From Microbispora amethystogenes (GTDB taxonomy: Bacteria > Actinomycetota > Actinomycetes > Streptosporangiales > Streptosporangiaceae): DNA of 64,000 nt. Below the pieces are notes generated by a model. It saw only the letters and a program-made list of their open reading frames with translations. It was not told the DNA's origin and ran no database searches. The stretch lies in contig NZ_BOOB01000028.1 in the NCBI RefSeq assembly GCF_016863015.1, positions 1 to 64,000 of the forward strand. The letters run 5' to 3'. Position numbers and translations under genes: made by a program. Positions 43,393 to 52,117 of the stretch are shown one piece after another. Within the stretch, counting starts at the first letter, position 1. Every line of letters starts with the position of its first letter.

Positions 43393-44643
43393 TCACCCGG
43401 ATGCGGGCTCGAGGACGGCGTCGCGCAGCGGGGACCGGGACACGGCCACCGACAGCAGCAGCCAGCTCACGCCCACGAAGGCCAGGATCACGTACGTGTC
43501 GTGCAGCGCGTGCTCCAGCACGCCGGTCACGATCGACGCGAGGGGAATGGAGGCGAACCCGAGCATCCGGGTGGTGGCGAGGACCCGGCCGAGCAGCCGC
43601 TCGGGGACGAGCCGCTGGCGGAGCGTGAGCGCGGACACCCCCACCACACCGGCCGCGGCGAACTGCGCCAGCCAGGCCGCCCCGATCGCCACCGGGCCAC
43701 GCGCCGGGACCAGGCAGAGCACCGCGAGGCCGCCCACGGCCATCGCCGCCGTCAGGAGCGTGCCCGGCGGGTGGCGCCTGAGCAGGCGGCCGGCCGCCGC
43801 GGCGCCGAGGACCGCGCCCATCCCCTGCATCGCGTACACCACACCGATCTGCGCCGGCGTGAACCGGTGATATTCGGTGAGGTAGAAGACGAGGTCGGCC
43901 AGGGCCAGCCAGATCGTGAAGTTGCCCGCCATGGCCAGCAGAGCACTGGACAGGACGATCCGGTTCTCCCCGAACAGGTAGCGCAGTCCCTCCCGGATGT
44001 CACCGAATACCGACTTGCGGGCGGCGGCGCGGCCGGGGCGCGCGGCCGTGCGCCCGATGAACAGGATCAGCAGCGCCGACACGAAGAACGTGCCCGCGTC
44101 CAGGAAGATCGCCGTCTCGTAGCCCAGCGCCATCACGACGGTCGCGCCGATCAGGGGGCCCACCGTGCCGAGCGTGTAGTCGCCCATGTGGACGCGCGCG
44201 TTGGCCGTCGCCAGGCGCCGCGGCGGCACCAGCGTCGGCAGGATGCTCTGGAACGCCGGTTGGTAGAGCGGCTCGGCGCACGCCAGCAGGAAGGTGAGCG
44301 CGAAGACCAGCCAGACCGGCCGCGCTCCCGCCATCACGAACAGGGCCAGCGCGCAGGCGACCACCCCGGCGGCCAGGTCACCCGCGACCAGCACCCGCCG
44401 GTGGTCGAACCGGTCGGCGATCACACCTCCGAACATCGCGAGCAGCAGATAGGGCAGGTACTCCAGCGCGTACAGCGCGCCCGTGGCCAAGGCGGAGCCC
44501 GTCAGGTGCAGCACCAGCAGAGGAAGGGTCAGCCGGTACATCCAGTTGCCGACGGACGAGGTGAGATAGGCGCCCAGCAGCAGCCAGTACCGGTGGGTGG
44601 GATAGGCGGCCAAGGCCTCGCCCGGCACCGTGTCGTCAGGCAT
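43393..44643 (-). CDS. MFS transporter, exporter type
   Basis: A 416-residue protein with about 12 helices ('RYWLLLGAYLTSSVGNWMYR', 'EYLPYLLLAMFGGVIADRFD') and a cytoplasmic centre loop. It belongs to the macrolide-efflux-like branch. Its ATG overlaps the end of the TPR gene by eight bases (ATGCCTGA), so it is the last gene of the peptide-TPR-MFS operon and is translationally coupled to the TPR protein. Export of the peptide product or a related ligand is a hypothesis. Confidence 0.92.
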   Translation of the reverse strand: MPDDTVPGEALAAYPTHRYWLLLGAYLTSSVGNWMYRLTLPLLVLHLTGSALATGALYALEYLPYLLLAMFGGVIADRFDHRRVLVAGDLAAGVVACALALFVMAGARPVWLVFALTFLLACAEPLYQPAFQSILPTLVPPRRLATANARVHMGDYTLGTVGPLIGATVVMALGYETAIFLDAGTFFVSALLILFIGRTAARPGRAAARKSVFGDIREGLRYLFGENRIVLSSALLAMAGNFTIWLALADLVFYLTEYHRFTPAQIGVVYAMQGMGAVLGAAAAGRLLRRHPPGTLLTAAMAVGGLAVLCLVPARGPVAIGAAWLAQFAAAGVVGVSALTLRQRLVPERLLGRVLATTRMLGFASIPLASIVTGVLEHALHDTYVILAFVGVSWLLLSVAVSRSPLRDAVLEPASG

Positions 44644-46654
44644 CTTCCAGAGCCTGCCGCACGTCCGCGTCGTCCGGCGCCAGGTCCGCCGCCCGGAGGA
44701 GGTCGGCCTTGGCCGGTTCCCGCCTGCCCAGGGCGCGCAGTGCGACGGCCCGGTTGTACAGCAGCGCGGCGTCCTCGCCGAGTTCGAGCGCCCGGGTCAG
44801 GTCGGCCACGGCACCTTCGGGGTCTCCGGTCTCGAAGGCGAGGGCACCCCGGGCGGCCCACGCCGACGCCAGCGCGGGGTCCCGGTCCAGCGCGGCGTCG
44901 AGCGCCTTGCGCGCCTCGGCGTGCCTGCCCTCCGCCGCCTCCACCTGACCCAGCACGCACAGCAGATGGGCGTTTCCCGGATCCAGCGCCAGGCCCAGCT
45001 CCACGTCCTCCCTGGCCCTGCCGTACTCCCCGGCGGCGGTGAGCAGTCCCGCCCGGTTGACGTAGGCGAGTGCGAATCCGGGGTCCAGCTCCAGGGCGTG
45101 GTCCAGGTCGGCCAGCGCCCCCTCATGGTCCCCCTCGGCGAACCGGATCTCCGCCCGGTTGTAGTACGGCTCGGGGAAGGGCGGGCTCACCCGCATCGCG
45201 GTCTCGTAGTCGGCCGCCGCCTCGTCGTGCCTGCCGAGGCGGCACAGCAGGTTGCCGCGGTCGACGTAGTAGTCGGGATACTCCGGGTCGGCCTCGACCG
45301 CCGCCGTCAGGTCGGCCAGCGCCTCGTGCGGCCGCCCCAGCAGCACGCTCAACTGGGCCCGGTTGGCCCGCAGGACCAGCCGGTGGATGGGGTGCTCGCC
45401 GGGGTCCAGGTCGCGTTCCGCCAGCTCGATCGCCGCCTCGACGAGCCGGTACGCCTCGGTGAGCCGGCCGTGGCGGCTCACCACGAGCGCCTTGCCGTTG
45501 AGGTCGAAGCCCAGGTGGAAGGCGCGCAGCCGGCGGTCGGGCAGCAGAGAGGTGAGCGCCACCGCCTCGTTGATCCAGGCCAGCGCCTCGTCGGCGTCCC
45601 GCCGGGCCGGGTCGTGGTGACGGACCAGCAGCATCGCGGTGGCGTAGGCCGCGGTCGCCCGGTCCTTCGGGTCGACGATCTCCCTACGGGCCAGATCGAA
45701 CAGCGCGCGGGCCGCCTCCTCCCGCTCGGTGGCGCCGAGCGCGGACGCGGTGCCGTGCAGGATCCGCCACCACACCTCGGGGTCGGCCTCCCGCTCGATG
45801 ATCCGCAACGCCCGCTCGCCCAGCTCGGCGGCGGCGTGGTGGAAGCCTTCGGTCAGGCACCGGTCCACCGCGAAGGCGAACGCGTCGATCACCGCCCGTG
45901 GGTCGCCCCCCTGCTCCAGGTGACAGCGCTCGCGGTGGTAGGGGATCGCACCGAGCCGCGGCGCGACGAGCCCGGTCGCGGCCAGCGCGTCGGCCCTCTC
46001 CCGGTGCCTGCGGGCCCGTTCTCCGGGACTCGCCCGCTCGTACGGCTCGCGCACCGAGGGCGCGTCGCAGGTGCCGTCGAGCTCGACATAGTCCCCCTCG
46101 GCGTTCCCCTCGGTGACGTGGTCCCTCCTGGTGACCCGTCGCTCGGCGTACCGTTCGAGGGCGGCGGCCAGTTCGGGATCGGGATCGGCCGCGCAGACGA
46201 CGAGCGTGAGCAGGGCGGGGTCGAGGCGGCGGAGCAGGACGGTGAGAAGCTCGCGGTCGGTGTGGTCGGCGTGGTCCACCTGTTCCACGACGAGCGCGCG
46301 CGGCCCCCGCGCCGGGTAGTCGCGGAGGAACTCGGCCAGGCCGTTGGCGATGCGCAGCGTGCGCCGGGGCGCGGGCACCAGGATGCGCTGGCTCCTGGGC
46401 AGAGCGGCGGCGATCGACTGCCGCCGGGCCGGGACCACATCGCACAGGTCGGGGGCGGCCGCACGGATCTCGATGTCGTGCGCGGACACCAGGTCGGGCC
46501 GGTGCTCCAGGGCCCGCGGCACCAGCGCGTGCAGCAGTGCGCCCGCCGCGGTGTACGGCCCGCACCGCCGCCGGTGCGCGTCGATCGGAGGCAGCAGCGG
46601 CTCCGGGACCGGCTCCCCCGTCCAGTGTGTCGCCCTGATCCACAGATGGCGCAC
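44636..46654 (-). CDS. TPR protein with degenerate ATPase-like N-terminus
   Basis: A 672-residue cytoplasmic protein; GTG 46654 follows GGGGAGG. The N-terminal ~230 residues resemble a STAND/AAA-type module that lost its P-loop: no GxxxxGK is visible, yet a Walker-B-like strand remains ('RALVVEQVDHADHTDRELL', 'LTLVVCAADPDPEL'). From about 380 to the end there are at least eight TPR motifs ('PYYNRAEIRFAEGDHEGAL', 'AYVNRAGLLTAAGEYGRARE'). TPR arrays bind peptides or proteins. It lies 100 bases after the 24-residue peptide gene and overlaps the MFS gene. Role inferred: peptide receptor, chaperone or regulator. Confidence 0.85.
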   Translation of the reverse strand: MRHLWIRATHWTGEPVPEPLLPPIDAHRRRCGPYTAAGALLHALVPRALEHRPDLVSAHDIEIRAAAPDLCDVVPARRQSIAAALPRSQRILVPAPRRTLRIANGLAEFLRDYPARGPRALVVEQVDHADHTDRELLTVLLRRLDPALLTLVVCAADPDPELAAALERYAERRVTRRDHVTEGNAEGDYVELDGTCDAPSVREPYERASPGERARRHRERADALAATGLVAPRLGAIPYHRERCHLEQGGDPRAVIDAFAFAVDRCLTEGFHHAAAELGERALRIIEREADPEVWWRILHGTASALGATEREEAARALFDLARREIVDPKDRATAAYATAMLLVRHHDPARRDADEALAWINEAVALTSLLPDRRLRAFHLGFDLNGKALVVSRHGRLTEAYRLVEAAIELAERDLDPGEHPIHRLVLRANRAQLSVLLGRPHEALADLTAAVEADPEYPDYYVDRGNLLCRLGRHDEAAADYETAMRVSPPFPEPYYNRAEIRFAEGDHEGALADLDHALELDPGFALAYVNRAGLLTAAGEYGRAREDVELGLALDPGNAHLLCVLGQVEAAEGRHAEARKALDAALDRDPALASAWAARGALAFETGDPEGAVADLTRALELGEDAALLYNRAVALRALGRREPAKADLLRAADLAPDDADVRQALEDA

Positions 46655-46704
46655 GCGATCGGCCTCCCCGTGATCGGCGCCGGAAGATCCCCGCAGACAG
46701 AGAA

Positions 46705-46747
46705 CGGAGCCGGCGCCCCGGGTCGAACCCCTCGGACGCCGGCTCCG
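46705..46747 (-). terminator. Terminator/attenuator hairpin between the small peptide gene and the TPR gene
   Basis: Perfect 11-bp inverted repeat CGGAGCCGGCG (46705-46715) with CGCCGGCTCCG (46737-46747), starting seven bases after the peptide stop codon. It would let the short peptide message accumulate while only some transcription continues into the TPR-MFS genes. Confidence 0.7.
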
Positions 46748-46754
46748 TGATCGA

Positions 46755-46829
46755 TCAGGTCAGGTGCCGGGGACTGGCGGCGGCGGACAGCTTGGCCGTG
46801 CCAGGCTTGTGGACGATGATCTTCTTCAT
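46755..46829 (-). CDS. 24-residue basic peptide, putative RiPP-precursor-like or signal peptide gene
   Basis: ATG at 46829 preceded by AAGGGGGC at good spacing, stop at 46755; the product begins 'MKKIIVHK' and ends 'SPRHLT'. It is strongly basic at the N-terminus with a small Ser/Ala-rich centre and no cysteine, so lanthionine bridging is not expected. A plausible promoter lies directly upstream and a perfect hairpin directly downstream, which frames it as a small transcription unit at the head of the TPR-MFS operon. Too short for routine gene finders. Expression is not proven; the evidence is the ribosome binding site, promoter, hairpin and position. Confidence 0.6.
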   Translation of the reverse strand: MKKIIVHKPGTAKLSAAASPRHLT

Positions 46830-46863
46830 GGTGCCCCCTTCGACCATTGTTCGAATGAGGGAT

Positions 46864-46892
46864 ATATCAACACGAACGAGACCGGCCAACAA
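46864..46892 (-). promoter_or_regulatory. Predicted promoter of the peptide-TPR-MFS operon
   Basis: On the minus strand TTGTTG (46887-46892), 17 bp, then TGATAT (46864-46869), a near-consensus vegetative promoter about 35 bp upstream of the peptide start codon. Confidence 0.5.
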
Positions 46893-46928: not shown

Positions 46929-48104
46929 TCAGTCGCCGATCAGGGCGTCCACGAAGACCTCGGGGTCGAACGGCGCGAGGTCGTCCGGGCCCTCGCCGAG
47001 GCCGACGAGCTTCACCGGCACGCCCAGCTCACGCTGGACCGAGATCACGATGCCGCCCTTGGCCGTGCCGTCCAGCTTGGTCAGGGCGATGCCGGTCACG
47101 TTGACCACCTCGGCGAAGACCTGGGCCTGGCGCATGCCGTTCTGGCCGGTGGTCGCGTCGAGGACGAGCAGCACCTCGTCCACCGTCGCCTTCTTCTCGA
47201 TGACCCGCTTGACCTTGCCCAGCTCGTCCATGAGGCCGGTCTTGGTGTGCAGCCGTCCCGCCGTGTCGATGATCACGGTGTCGGCCTTGTCCTCGATGCC
47301 CTTGGCCACGGCGTCGAACGCCACGGACGCCGGGTCGCCGCCCTCGGGGCCGCGTACGACGCCCGCGCCGACCCGGTCGCCCCACGTCTGGAGCTGGTCG
47401 GTCGCGGCGGCCCGGAACGTGTCGGCGGCGCCGAGCACGACCTTCCCGCCGTCGCCGACCAGCACCCGGGCGAGCTTGCCCGAGGTGGTGGTCTTGCCGG
47501 TGCCGTTGACGCCGACGACGAGCACGACGGCGGGCCGCTCACCGTGGGGCCGGGTGTGGAGGGTGCGGTCGAGGTCCGGCGCGACCTGCGTGAGCAGTTC
47601 CTCGCGCAGCAGCCTGCGCACCTCGTCCGGGGTGCGGCTGCCGAGCACCTTCACCTTCGTCCGGAGTTCCTCCACCATCGCGCGGGTGGGCGCGACGCCG
47701 ACGTCGGCGGTGATCAGAGTCTCCTCGATCTCGTCCCAGACGTCGTCGTCGAGCCGGTCCCGCGACAGCAGTTCGAGCAGTCCACGGCCGAGGACGTTCT
47801 GCGAGCGGGCCAGGCGGCTGCGCAGCCGGATCATCCGTCCCGCCGAGGGCGGCGGGACCTCGATCTCCGGAGCCTTGATCAGCTCCTCGATGGGGGGAGG
47901 CGGCAGCGTGGTCGTCGTGCCGCCGTCCTCCTCGCCCAGCCCTCCCTTGAGCGGCTCCTCGACGACGGGAGCCTTCGGCTCGGGCGGGGCCGGCGGCGCG
48001 GGCGGCAGGTCCTTCGCCTTCGGCCGGAACAGCAGCCACAGGCCACCCACCGCCAGTATGGCGACGATGGCCACGATCACGATGATGCCGAGGTAACCGT
48101 CCAC
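46929..48104 (-). CDS. ftsY: Signal recognition particle receptor FtsY
   Basis: A 391-residue GTPase from GTG 48104 (ATG 48125 adds seven residues). N-terminal membrane helix 'YLGIIVIVAIVAILAVGGLW', a charged Pro/Glu-rich A domain, then the N and G domains: G1 'GVNGTGKTTTSGKLA', 'VVLGAADTFRAAA', 'VIIDTAGRLHTK' and 'LTKLDGTAKGG'. It docks SRP-bound ribosomes to the SecYEG translocon. An N-terminal helix is usual in actinobacterial FtsY. It follows smc on the same strand with 110 bases between. Confidence 0.97.
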   Translation of the reverse strand: MDGYLGIIVIVAIVAILAVGGLWLLFRPKAKDLPPAPPAPPEPKAPVVEEPLKGGLGEEDGGTTTTLPPPPIEELIKAPEIEVPPPSAGRMIRLRSRLARSQNVLGRGLLELLSRDRLDDDVWDEIEETLITADVGVAPTRAMVEELRTKVKVLGSRTPDEVRRLLREELLTQVAPDLDRTLHTRPHGERPAVVLVVGVNGTGKTTTSGKLARVLVGDGGKVVLGAADTFRAAATDQLQTWGDRVGAGVVRGPEGGDPASVAFDAVAKGIEDKADTVIIDTAGRLHTKTGLMDELGKVKRVIEKKATVDEVLLVLDATTGQNGMRQAQVFAEVVNVTGIALTKLDGTAKGGIVISVQRELGVPVKLVGLGEGPDDLAPFDPEVFVDALIGD

Positions 48105-48214
48105 ACCATGCAGTTTCCCAGACAACCGGCAGTGCTCGGTCGCGCGGACCCGCCCGTCGCGCGCCTCCGCCGCGCCACGGCCCCGGGTTCACGCCGCAGT
48201 CCGGGACCTGGTTG

Positions 48215-51200
48215 CTACACCTTCTCCCGCAGGCGCTGGCTCACGACCTGGGTGACGCCGTCGCCGCGCATCGACACACCGTAGAGCGCGTCGGCGATCT
48301 CCATCGTGCGCTTCTGGTGGGTGATCACGATGAGCTGTGAGGCTTGTCTCAGTTCCTCGAAGAGAGTCAGCAGCCGCTGGGTGTTGGTGTCGTCGAGGGC
48401 CGCTTCGACCTCGTCCATCACGTAGAACGGCGACGGGCGGGCCTTGAAGATCGAGATCAGGAACGCCACCGCCGTCAGCGACCGCTCGCCGCCGGACAGC
48501 AACGACAGCCGCTTGACCTTCTTGCCGGGCGGCCGGGCCTCGACCTCGACCCCGGTGGTCAGCATGTCGGAGGGGTCGGTGAGCAGCAGCCGGCCCTCCC
48601 CGCCGGGGAAGACCCGGCCGAAGATCTGCTCGAACTCGCGCGCCACGTCCTCGTACGCCGCCGCGAAGACCTGCTCGACCCGGTCGTCGACCTCCTTGAC
48701 CACCAGCAGCAGGTCGCGCCGGGTCTTCTTGAGGTCCTCCAGCTGGGAGGTGAGGAAGGCGTGCCGTTCCTCCAGCGCGGCGAACTCCTCCAGCGCCAGC
48801 GGGTTGACCTTGCCGAGCTGGGTCATCTGCCGCTCGGCCGTCCTCGCCCGTTTCTCCTGCTCCTCCCGCACGTACGGCACGGGCGGCTCGCCCGGCACCG
48901 GCGCCGTGGGGCCGTACTCGGCGAGGAGGGGTTCCAGCTCGATGCCGTACTCCTCCAGGGCCCGCTGCTCCATCTGCTCCAGGCGCAGCCGCCGCTCCGT
49001 CCTCGCCATCTCGCTGCCGTGGACCCGGTTGACCAGGGCGTCCAGCTCGGAGCCGAGCTCGCGGACACGCAGGCGCACCTGCTTGAGCTCGGCGTCGATC
49101 TGCCCGCGGGCCCGCTCGGCCTCGTCGCGCTCCTCGGCGGCCCGCGCGAGTGAGCCCTCCAGGGCGGTCAGCGCGGTGCGGGCGCCCTCGGCGACCGCGG
49201 CGGCGATCTCGGCCTGCCTGCGCCGGCGTTCCCGGTCGGCCGCGGCCCGCGCGCGGTCCTGCCGCTCCCGCTGGGCCGCGCGGAGCAGGGCGTCGGCACG
49301 GCCCGCGATGCCCCGCGCCCGCTCCTCCGCCGTACGGACGGTCAGCCGGGCCTCCATCTCGGCCTGGCGGGTGACGCCGCAGACGGCGGCGAGATCGTCG
49401 CGGGTGTCGGTGGTCGGCTCCGCCTCCAGCTCGGCGGCGTACTCCGCCTCGGCGAGCTGTTCCTCCAGCTCCACCACCACGGCCTGGGCCTGTTCGCGGG
49501 CCTCTTCCGCGTCGCGCACCGACCCGCCCAGCCGCGCCGCCTCGTCCTGGGCGGCCTTGACGGCGGCCTCCAGCCGGGCGAGCTGCTTGGCCGCCGCCGC
49601 GGCCTTCTGGTCGGCCTCCCGCTGCCTGCCGCGCAGCCGGTCGAGCACCGCCTGCGCCGCGTTCAGCCGGTTCTGGGCGTCGTTGACGCCGCTCTGGGCG
49701 GCGCTCACACCGCTCTGCGCCTCGGCCACCCGCGCCTGGGCCTCCTCCAGCGCGAGCTGGCACTCCCGCTCGGCGGCCACGGCCTCCGCGAGCGCCTCGG
49801 CGTGCCGCTCGGCCCCGGCCCTGGCGGTGGCCAGGTCGGCGGCGGCCTCGTCGAGGGCGGTCCGCATCTGCAGCAGCGAGGACCCGCCGCCGGAGCCGCC
49901 GTGCGCCGCGTGGACCCCGAGCAGGTCGCCCGACGTGGTGACGGCCCGCAGGTCCGGATGGGAGTCCACGACCTTGCGCGCGGCCGGCAGGTCGGGCACC
50001 ACGACCACGTCGGACAGCAGCGCCTCCACCGCCGGGCGCAGCTCGTCCGGCACGGCCACCAGGTCGGCCGCCCACTCCGCGCCCGCGACGGGCGGCTCCG
50101 GCCGGTCGTATGTCTCGTGCCGGTCGGCCGCGACGAGCAGGGCGGCGCGTCCGGCGCCGGTCTCGCGCAGGTGCTCCACGGCCGCCACGGCCGCGGTGAG
50201 CGAGGCGACGGCCACGCCGTCCACGGCCAGCACGGCCGCGACGGCGGCCTCAGCCCCGGGCCGTACGGCCAGCAGCGTGGCGACGGGGCCGAGCATCCCG
50301 GGCAGGCCCGCCCCGAGCAGCGCGGCGGCCCCGTCGGCGCCTCCGGCGAGGCTCATCTCCAGGGCCTCGCACCGCGCCTGCAGGGCGGCGACGGCACGCT
50401 GCGACTCGGAGTCGGCGGCGCGGGCGGCGCCGACGGCGGCCTTCGCGGCGGCCAGCGCGGCGACGGGCGCGGACAGGGCGGCCCGCTCCCGCTCCACCAC
50501 AGCCCCGGCCTGCTCCGCGACGGCCCTGGCCTCCTCCACCGCGGCGCGGGCGAGGCCGACGCCCTCCTGCGCGGTCTCCAGCTCGGCGGCGAGCTCGGGG
50601 TCGGCCGGTGGCTCGTCGAGCGCGCCCGTGTCCAGCTCGTCCTGGGCCCGCTCGGCGCGGCGGGTGGCGTCCTCGACGGCCTTGGTGAGCCGGCCGATCT
50701 CGTCCCCGGCGGCCCTGGCCCGGCTCCTGGCCGACTCGACCTGGCCGCGCAGCCGGGCGAGCGCCTCCCTGCGGTCGGCCGCGGCGCGGGCGGCGACCGA
50801 AAGGCGCCGTTCCTCGGCGGCGAGGGCCTCCTCGGCCTCGGCGCGGACCTCGACGGCGGCGGCGAGCCGCTCGCGCGCCTCGTCCAGCTCGGCGGCCAGC
50901 ACCCGCTCCTGCTCGCGCACCTCGGCGGCCTCGCGCTCCAGGTCCTCCGGATCGCGCCCGCGCCGTTCGACGGACGCGGCGTCGGCGGCGTGCCGCCTGC
51001 GCTCGGCCGCCAGGCTCTCCACGCCGCGCAGCCGCTCCCGCAGGGCCGAGAGGTGGTAGAAGGTCTCCTGGGCCGCCTTCAGCCGCGGCTGGGCCTCGTT
51101 CTCCGCGGCCTCCAGCTCGGTCTCCCGCCGCTGCCCCTCGGCCAGCTCGGCCTCCACCCGGGCCCGCCTGGCCTGTACGGCCGCCTCGTCGGCCTCCTCG

Positions 51201-51928
51201 CGCTGCAGGGTGTCGCGGAGGGTCACGACGTCGTCGGCGAGCAGGCGCAGCCGCGCGTCGCGCAGGTCGGCCTGGATCACGGCCGCCTTCCTCGCGATCT
51301 CGGCCTGCCGGCCGAGCGGCTTGAGCTGGCGGCGCAGCTCGGCCACGAGGTCCTGGACGCGGGTGAGGTTGGCCTGCATCGCGTCGAGCTTGCGGAGCGC
51401 CTTCTCCTTGCGCTTGCGGTGCTTGAGCACGCCGGCGGCCTCTTCGATGAACGCCCTGCGCTCCTCGGGCCCGGCGTGCAGCACCTGGTCGAGCTGGCCC
51501 TGGCCGACGATGACGTGCATCTCCCGGCCGATGCCGGAGTCGGAGAGCAGCTCCTGGATGTCGAGCAGGCGGCAGGTGTCGCCGTTGATGGCGTACTCGC
51601 TCTGGCCCGACCGGAACATCAGCCGGCTGATCGTGACCTCGGTGTAGTCGATCGGCAGCGCACCGTCACCGTTGTCGATCGTCAGGGTGACCTCGGCGCG
51701 GCCGAGGGGCGGGCGGCTGGAGGTGCCCGCGAAGATGACGTCCTCCATCTTGCCGCCGCGCAGCGACTTGGCGCTGTGCTCGCCCATCACCCAGGCGAGG
51801 GCGTCGACGACGTTGGACTTGCCGGAGCCGTTGGGGCCGACGACCGCCGTGATGCCGGGCTCGAAACGGAGGGTGGTGGCCGAGGCGAACGACTTGAAGC
51901 CGCGTAAGGTGAGCGTCTTCAGGTACAC
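48215..51928 (-). CDS. smc: Chromosome segregation ATPase SMC
   Basis: A 1237-residue SMC protein from GTG 51928, which has GAGGGGGG upstream and gives the standard N-terminus ('YLKTLTLRGFKSFA'). Walker A 'GPNGSGKSN' is at 31-39, a long coiled coil follows, the hinge lies near the middle, and the signature 'LSGGE' starts at residue 1144 followed by Walker B 'FYVMDEVEAALDDTN'. It loads at parS via ParB and compacts the chromosome with ScpA/ScpB. A 36-residue N-terminal extension in the frame (to 52036) is Pro/Arg-rich and not used. Confidence 0.97.
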   Translation of the reverse strand: MYLKTLTLRGFKSFASATTLRFEPGITAVVGPNGSGKSNVVDALAWVMGEHSAKSLRGGKMEDVIFAGTSSRPPLGRAEVTLTIDNGDGALPIDYTEVTISRLMFRSGQSEYAINGDTCRLLDIQELLSDSGIGREMHVIVGQGQLDQVLHAGPEERRAFIEEAAGVLKHRKRKEKALRKLDAMQANLTRVQDLVAELRRQLKPLGRQAEIARKAAVIQADLRDARLRLLADDVVTLRDTLQREEADEAAVQARRARVEAELAEGQRRETELEAAENEAQPRLKAAQETFYHLSALRERLRGVESLAAERRRHAADAASVERRGRDPEDLEREAAEVREQERVLAAELDEARERLAAAVEVRAEAEEALAAEERRLSVAARAAADRREALARLRGQVESARSRARAAGDEIGRLTKAVEDATRRAERAQDELDTGALDEPPADPELAAELETAQEGVGLARAAVEEARAVAEQAGAVVERERAALSAPVAALAAAKAAVGAARAADSESQRAVAALQARCEALEMSLAGGADGAAALLGAGLPGMLGPVATLLAVRPGAEAAVAAVLAVDGVAVASLTAAVAAVEHLRETGAGRAALLVAADRHETYDRPEPPVAGAEWAADLVAVPDELRPAVEALLSDVVVVPDLPAARKVVDSHPDLRAVTTSGDLLGVHAAHGGSGGGSSLLQMRTALDEAAADLATARAGAERHAEALAEAVAAERECQLALEEAQARVAEAQSGVSAAQSGVNDAQNRLNAAQAVLDRLRGRQREADQKAAAAAKQLARLEAAVKAAQDEAARLGGSVRDAEEAREQAQAVVVELEEQLAEAEYAAELEAEPTTDTRDDLAAVCGVTRQAEMEARLTVRTAEERARGIAGRADALLRAAQRERQDRARAAADRERRRRQAEIAAAVAEGARTALTALEGSLARAAEERDEAERARGQIDAELKQVRLRVRELGSELDALVNRVHGSEMARTERRLRLEQMEQRALEEYGIELEPLLAEYGPTAPVPGEPPVPYVREEQEKRARTAERQMTQLGKVNPLALEEFAALEERHAFLTSQLEDLKKTRRDLLLVVKEVDDRVEQVFAAAYEDVAREFEQIFGRVFPGGEGRLLLTDPSDMLTTGVEVEARPPGKKVKRLSLLSGGERSLTAVAFLISIFKARPSPFYVMDEVEAALDDTNTQRLLTLFEELRQASQLIVITHQKRTMEIADALYGVSMRGDGVTQVVSQRLREKV

Positions 51929-52117
51929 GTCCGCCCCCCTCGGTGCCGCCCGTCGGCTGGGGGGAAAGACTACAGGTCCCGGCGCCGGAGTACGCGGAAT
52001 AGACGCCGCTCGACGTCCGGCCTCCCGGGGAGGCAATTCCCGTGGGACAGTCCCGGAAATGGCAAGGGACGCCTTTGCGGGGCGTCCCTACAATCCTTTT
52101 CCCGTTCCGCCGGTCCC

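Follow-up and report, generated by a model that had tools for sequence, protein, structure and literature searches.

The 64,000-nt stretch analysed here (the window; positions 1 to 64,000 of contig NZ_BOOB01000028.1) belongs to the 8.13-Mb genome of Microbispora amethystogenes. It carries on its minus strand a compact unit consisting, in the 5' to 3' order, of a short peptide gene, an RNA hairpin, a gene for a tetratricopeptide repeat (TPR) protein and a gene for an exporter of the major facilitator superfamily (MFS). The 24-codon peptide frame and the adjacent TPR gene are conserved as a pair, the frame at the level of its amino-acid sequence, and plasmid cassettes of similar layout in other phyla suggest that short peptides are made or sensed in a manner not described so far. 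With a probability of roughly 0.45, we read the locus as a minimal peptide-maturation cassette, in which the TPR partner would bind a precursor peptide and mature or sense it, the product being exported.

A search of 100 relatives with the TPR protein gave matches in 48 genomes, many of them to merely generic TPR proteins. Two overlapping sets of loci were opened from this match list: 31 loci comprising the 30 best matches (window locus included) and a paralogue from the same genome on contig C9, and 41 loci displayed as wider stretches, comprising 40 places and the window. A preliminary description of the unit had proposed a search for a conserved short frame upstream of TPR orthologues, and this prediction of a conserved peptide tied to the TPR protein was confirmed well outside the window. 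One of the same pattern and 24 residues long preceded the TPR gene in all 31 loci of the first set, the window among them (the 24-residue start of L031 is displayed in the wider set, as L043), and a frame of the peptide family was found in 37 of the 41 wider loci. For 29 of these 37 frames the distance to the TPR gene was no more than 300 nt, and every one of the 29 was exactly 24 residues long; 12 were of the window type (W) and 17 of a sister type ending in HKG (G). The other eight (D, the M50 type) had 26-33 residues and lay approximately 1.4-1.7 kb upstream. In L068, L076, L077 and L078 no peptide of this pattern was found close upstream; in L076, a 26-residue frame starting at TTG lies 1.7 kb upstream. 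The ratio pN/pS of the peptide frames was 0.26 (G), 0.45 (W) and 0.35 (D), and the third codon position was the most variable one in the 24-residue set. A profile of 24 peptides, including that of the window, recovered two copies in the window's own 8.1-Mb genome (E 6e-13 and 1e-12, the next frame at 0.096); among 394 genomes from the class, 18 gave matches, including three from other families. The front of the peptide is conserved across the groups (MKK, alternating hydrophobic residues, R/H-K-P-G, L-T/S) and the back is variable, SxxHxG-like in the short types and with Tyr and often Cys in the D type. One D-type peptide, in L075 (contig C29 of genome G073), has a Cys-rich end, MACYCYGCCCCGGRAAI. 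The paralogous unit of the window's own genome (L079, 7676-9729, contig C9) encodes the peptide MKKIIIRKPGTTKLSGTSSVIHKG and shows no MFS match after its TPR gene.

Four loci (L113, L116, L120 and L123) had the peptide without a TPR gene, and tblastn found no remnant of one there. One of these peptides stops at codon 24 and the rest reach 25, 30 and 30. A length of exactly 24 was found for 29 of 29 peptides with the TPR gene directly downstream versus one of four without (Fisher p 7e-4), which is only a hint, since the sequences share ancestry and had been seen before the test was conceived. Sixteen of the 17 G-type peptides terminate with GGGTGA, and in L051-L053, L058 and L065 the TPR frame is opened by a GTG overlapping the peptide stop, where this codon is chosen as start. 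In L123 (1-500) the frame continues into what by eye is an apparent mobile-element gene, and the TPR gene is gone.

In the eight divergent D-type loci, the peptide gene is followed by a gene for a membrane protein of 400-490 residues with an HExxH motif and, in our reading, a PqqD-like front, and then by the TPR gene. Pfam Peptidase_M50 matched two of nine members of this protein, with a best E of 4e-4. Peptide, M50-like and TPR genes were also found together in genomes G302 (L114), G157 and G348, and in the same order in Streptomyces sp. NBC_01450 (L168). Three matches to a P-loop-type TPR protein were obtained in the 394 genomes of the class, all of them known M50-type TPR genes. M50-like relatives elsewhere adjoin ThiF enzymes (two checked by Pfam, one sub-threshold PaaA-like N-terminal match), and those of L163, L164, L166 and L167 lie near short peptides with a similar front. 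L158, in the window's own genome (contig C18, 206317-207471), and L163-L167, with PqqD-like/M50-like genes, ThiF-like genes and short peptides with a KIxIR-like front, are a probable further peptide-product family.

For other phyla, 72,556 plasmid records were searched by tblastn with relatives of the TPR protein, and 17 loci among the highest-ranking matches, from Pseudomonadota, Bacillota, Fusobacteriota and Streptomyces, were opened (L168, L169, L171-L174, L179-L184, L186-L189 and L191). L170 (Nonomuraea, of the window's family), L185 and L190, which repeats the Acinetobacter locus in shorter form, were left out of the 17; L175 is the other end of the L173 record, and L184 and L191 were counted apart though they hold the same TPR protein. 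The Phyllobacterium TPR protein of L185 was considered as a relative and rejected, being without such a peptide gene. Upstream of the TPR gene, 15 of the 17 encode a short basic peptide, in L168 with the M50-like gene in between, and none was found upstream in the two Acinetobacter loci. The peptides include MKKKIAETTTVIRTTTPYTGTV (Mesorhizobium plasmid), MKKSMLKKLPKLNKKVRTTTPYQAA (Vibrio coralliilyticus plasmid), MKVKVSEKQDTVRTTTSYVAG (Streptomyces NBC_00503), MKKVKVKATPVKAANAVVYSGN (Bacillus badius), MKTVKITKKVVKASNAVMYSGN (Priestia), MKMIKRKPAAKRVDFSVMYNR (Klebsiella), MKMIKRKPSAKRVDFSVMYGGTN (Pantoea agglomerans), MEKIMKPVPTRKTKSIGYNG (Listeria seeligeri), MKKLIKKKIELKKVNFSVMYCYKDGCLAF (Streptobacillus) and, in three copies, MKTVVIKKNSVRAKVVLGYN (Exiguobacterium). 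In the latter, E. alkaliphilum (L182, 4636-4931), three identical tandem genes of 20 residues precede the TPR gene. Twelve of the 13 judgeable peptide genes are absent from the gene tables of their records, tables which are incomplete in PLSDB; L173, where the gene crosses the record start, and L179, an unannotated record, were left out of this count.

Downstream of the plasmid TPR genes an exporter was found in 13 of 17 loci (12 MFS, one LysE), with two genes intervening in Bacillus and Priestia. L168 and L171 are without one, and the downstream side is not properly visible in L179 (not annotated) and L189 (where the stretch ends). Genes for an S9 peptidase or alpha/beta hydrolase occur in NBC_00503, Klebsiella and P. 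agglomerans (Pfam), Pantoea soli (annotation) and Vibrio (by eye), for an ATP-grasp enzyme in NBC_00503, for an O-methyltransferase in Bacillus, Priestia and Exiguobacterium, for a GNAT protein in Bacillus and for ThiF in Exiguobacterium; S9, ATP-grasp, O-methyltransferase and ThiF were found in some plasmid cassettes only. The annotation of the V. coralliilyticus plasmid splits its TPR gene into two overlapping frames (L172, 7938-10207). In NBC_00503 the MFS protein is fused to a flavin reductase domain (L169, 7173-9011), and short relatives follow the TPR gene in L071 and L074, probably matching the reductase part of the fusion.

The TPR proteins of Streptosporangiaceae were aligned by hhalign with the Rhizobiales/NBC_00503 set (probability 100, E 6.5e-52, 618 columns) and with the enteric/Bacillota set (probability 100, E 1.2e-43, 521 columns), and a third pair of sets gave E 1e-30 over the TPR part alone, all values that TPR repeats can inflate. 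The N-terminal stretch with a (S/D)LT...RxRFY-like motif was aligned in the first two pairs. A detector free of the window motif (basic N-terminus, Lys at position 2, a Tyr or His close to the end and a ribosome binding site) scored in the 300 nt ahead of the TPR gene at 11 of the 15 plasmid loci and once in the other 380,612 nt, a match that must be the third tandem Exiguobacterium copy according to the rules of the detector; the Listeria and Microvirga peptides fall outside these rules. The MFS proteins of the window and of the Bacillota cassettes matched at E ~1e-25 with 24-26 percent identity, a similarity that is ordinary for MFS. A search for the peptide by letters gave no match in the plasmids, and neither did the Klebsiella cassette in 5,426 E. 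coli genomes; the phage search gave merely four partial TPR matches.

The features of the window unit are collected in Table 1. Those named in the preliminary description all exist, the weak promoter being the exception: the pair is readable by eye, and the consensus scan returned 0 sites. The basic peptide frame has the ribosome binding site GAAGGGGG before its ATG, and the TPR gene has a GTG start with GGGGAGG ahead of it.

Table 1. Features of the peptide-TPR-MFS unit in the window.
Feature	Position	Strand	Remarks
Possible promoter, TTGTTG-N17-TGATAT	46864..46892	minus	read by eye, missed by consensus scan
Peptide gene, 24 codons and stop	46755..46829	minus	product MKKIIVHKPGTAKLSAAASPRHLT
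RNA hairpin, 15 bp	46704..46748	minus	3' of peptide stop, weak T-rich tail
TPR protein gene, 672 aa	44636..46654	minus	degenerate AAA_16-like N-terminal domain, no strict P-loop
MFS exporter gene (MFS_1/MFS_3), 416 aa	43393..44643	minus	8-base overlap with TPR gene

The hairpin, first described as a perfect stem of 11 bp directly after the peptide, is present there with its length understated: 15 consecutive pairs join the arms 46748-46734 and 46718-46704 (-44.1 kcal/mol, z -4.59, equalled by none of 200 shuffles). Counting stems of at least 8 pairs within 65 nt 3' of the peptide stop, we found one in 11 of 12 W, 8 of 8 D, 12 of 15 plasmid and 4 of 17 G loci, so that the hairpin is a common part, not a necessary one. 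The earlier suggestion that it sets the ratio of peptide to receptor fits the first three groups and fails for most of the G type.

Many TPR models of Pfam matched the 672-residue protein, and the strict Walker A motif GxxxxGK[ST] occurred in none of 44 aligned relatives, in agreement with the reported lack of a P-loop. In the N-terminus, described earlier as STAND-like, AAA_16 matched only weakly (E 0.0012, below the cut-off of the model) and with the C-terminal part of the model alone. The idea that the invariant GPYT stretch is a decayed P-loop was rejected: aligned with P-loop-like relatives, the stretch falls behind the P-loop region, and the window family has nothing that corresponds to this region. 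No helix-turn-helix (HTH) or other output domain was found in Pfam and NCBIfam scans of the window protein. Asn431 and Asn499 are present in 30 of 30 aligned rows, Asn533 and Asn634 in 29 of 30. By sequence, the nearest natural solved structures were superhelices of O-GlcNAc transferase (OGT), one engineered TPR protein scoring higher, and the run of TPRs with recurring Asn is common to both; the four residues look ladder-like as in OGT, where such Asn have a ladder role. As a difference from OGT, the Pfam scan of the window protein gave no glycosyltransferase model. The nearest named matches of the TPR protein were Sphaerimonospora, Planomonospora and Streptosporangium in eight of nine loci, the ninth being a weak match to a proteobacterial metagenome-assembled genome.

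The gene of the MFS protein (MFS_1, E 2e-35 in Pfam) overlaps the TPR gene by eight bases, as had been described. A BLAST match to the MFS set of the cassettes directly follows the TPR gene in five of 12 W loci (window, L040, L041, L049 and L050) and in 0 of 17 G loci, of which L069 has an MFS-like gene by eye; in the eight D loci the sole matches to the set were the two short flavin-reductase-like genes of L071 and L074. The exporter gene is optional, and the MFS protein was rejected as an obligatory partner in this bacterial family.

In the maturation cassette that we favour, the conserved front of the peptide would be the recognition part and the back would become the product or ligand. The TPR superhelix would hold the peptide and present it for trimming or modification, the hairpin would allow the peptide to be made in excess over the TPR protein, and the downstream MFS or LysE protein, where present, would export the product. 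This core could be a platform for added tailoring genes (M50-like protease, S9/alpha-beta hydrolases, O-methyltransferase, ATP-grasp, ThiF). We place maturation first; the tailoring genes of several cassettes speak for a product, the two-gene G units for a regulator. We tentatively suggest a cross-phylum system in which the TPR protein alone matures or senses peptides of ~20-30 residues, exporters and tailoring enzymes being optional, and such products or hormones may form a class not yet described in Actinomycetota, Pseudomonadota, Bacillota and Fusobacteriota. No description of such a cassette was found in the open-access literature searched.

Several observations weigh against this reading. 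The MFS gene is not conserved, being optional in the family and mostly absent beyond the window type, and the hairpin is mostly lost in the G type, where the peptide is kept. Neither clustering nor inspection by eye recognised a modifying enzyme, a protease or an RRE (recognition element of ribosomally synthesized and post-translationally modified peptides, RiPPs) beside the W and G peptides, and genomes with W/G-like peptides (G029, G047, G058, G100 and G200) gave no M50-like match at E 1e-10. The binding of the peptide in the TPR groove is something we infer from sequence alone. The detector was written after the peptides had been seen. Moreover, the Streptosporangiaceae peptide profile misses the plasmid peptides, the best two of which ranked 8 and 9 among 7,870 frames (E 5.4 and 5.6), behind unrelated frames, so that the cross-phylum link is carried by the TPR protein, the place and the hairpin; the Streptosporangiaceae and plasmid peptides may have no relationship, or may lack the length to reveal one.

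The unit resembles several known systems, and it does not show all the tested defining features of RRNPP, microcin C, FxSxx or biphenomycin systems. Biphenomycin-type clusters, in the parts of the sources used here, have a single operon for a short precursor, an MFS transporter and a TPR protein, as in the window; their TPR protein is an arginase (BipC/PbsE), and MNIO and radical SAM enzymes are present (PMC12707348, PMC12257519). No MNIO or radical SAM enzyme was recognised here by eye, no dedicated search having been made. The arginase motifs DIDLD and EEHxE occurred in 0 of 44 aligned TPR proteins, with a DxHxD string in one row, and an arginase identity was rejected. FxSxx-COOH systems are outlined in sections of PMC7159879 as a small peptide with a conserved C-terminus, a metallopeptidase and TPR/STAND proteins. 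The window peptide ends differently, in SPRHLT. NCBIfam, which we take to hold an FxSxx TPR model, gave no match of the window TPR protein to that system up to E 10. The modifying enzyme expected of a RiPP cluster was not recognised, by eye or clustering, next to the window peptide. Graspetide loci contain TPR proteins, of unclear role in the part of the source consulted (PMC8939145).

The preliminary description had offered two candidate readings, RRNPP-like signalling and a modified peptide with an exporter. In the former, which we consider unlikely, the peptide or a fragment of it would switch the TPR protein from outside or inside the cell. As characterised in passages of PMC10075063, RRNPP systems have an adjacent propeptide gene, a TPR receptor of 250-500 aa and Sec secretion, and are often plasmid-borne. 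The two-gene core of a small peptide gene directly adjoining a TPR gene, the strict peptide length and the plasmid carriage agree with this. However, the window TPR protein is too long with its 672 aa (some plasmid relatives, at ~457-502 aa, approach the range) and has no HTH model or other output domain, an exporter stands in place of Sec, the system occurs outside Bacillota too, and the window peptide has no hydrophobic signal segment as judged by hydropathy only (highest 12-residue mean 0.36). The O-methyltransferase, ATP-grasp and S9 peptidase genes of some cassettes would also be odd for a pure signal.

It is improbable that the peptide is an intracellular small subunit or inhibitor of the TPR protein, neither exported nor matured. 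Such a role would suit the sister-type loci, which in 17 of 17 cases are two-gene units lacking an MFS match (one has an MFS-like gene by eye), and the overlapping stop and start, giving near-equal amounts. Against it stand the exporter downstream in most plasmid loci and, in the other types, variable C-termini and hairpins that favour a surplus of peptide. A narrow-spectrum Trojan-horse antibiotic, microcin C-like or pantocin-like, with the TPR protein helping synthesis and the MFS protein serving export and self-protection, is likewise rather improbable. Microcin C is defined by a C-terminal Asn and a ThiF enzyme of MccB type. Its clusters and those of pantocin A have a short precursor and an MFS exporter, and share ThiF, GNAT and peptidase with some of our cassettes: MFS with peptidase or hydrolase on the Klebsiella, Pantoea and Vibrio plasmids, O-methyltransferase, GNAT and ThiF in Bacillota, and the three tandem peptide genes of Exiguobacterium, whose cassette has both C-terminal Asn and ThiF. 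The window peptide, however, ends in Thr with no ThiF gene recognised in the unit, ThiF adjoins the TPR gene in just one of the 17 plasmid loci, the TPR protein is the constant part here, and most sister-group loci are without an adjacent exporter or enzyme. A regulatory leader peptide controlling TPR and MFS expression by hairpin attenuation or translational coupling is very improbable, despite the W-type hairpin directly 3' of the frame and the G-type stop overlapping a possible TPR start, since the whole peptide is conserved, N-terminal end included, while third codon positions vary most, the sister group mostly loses the hairpin yet keeps the peptide, and in the D type an M50-like gene separates peptide and TPR genes.

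Peptide genes that are seldom listed in plasmid gene tables can on this basis be searched for by a rule that combines a short basic frame and its strong ribosome binding site with a hairpin, a homologous TPR gene and often an exporter. If the products are antibiotics or signals, a whole set of them would come within reach in one step; were the TPR protein to mature the peptide unaided, it would be an unfamiliar kind of peptide-handling protein.

Around the units, gene names were mostly assigned by eye. Upstream of the window unit lie an FtsY-like (46929-48125) and an SMC-like gene (48215-52036), and an FtsY-like gene is upstream in several other W-type loci. Most G-type loci have the order globin-like, mechanosensitive-channel-like, XRE-TPR, GNAT, peptide and TPR, PurU-like and S9-like. 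The TGATAT part of the possible promoter is retained in L040 and L041.

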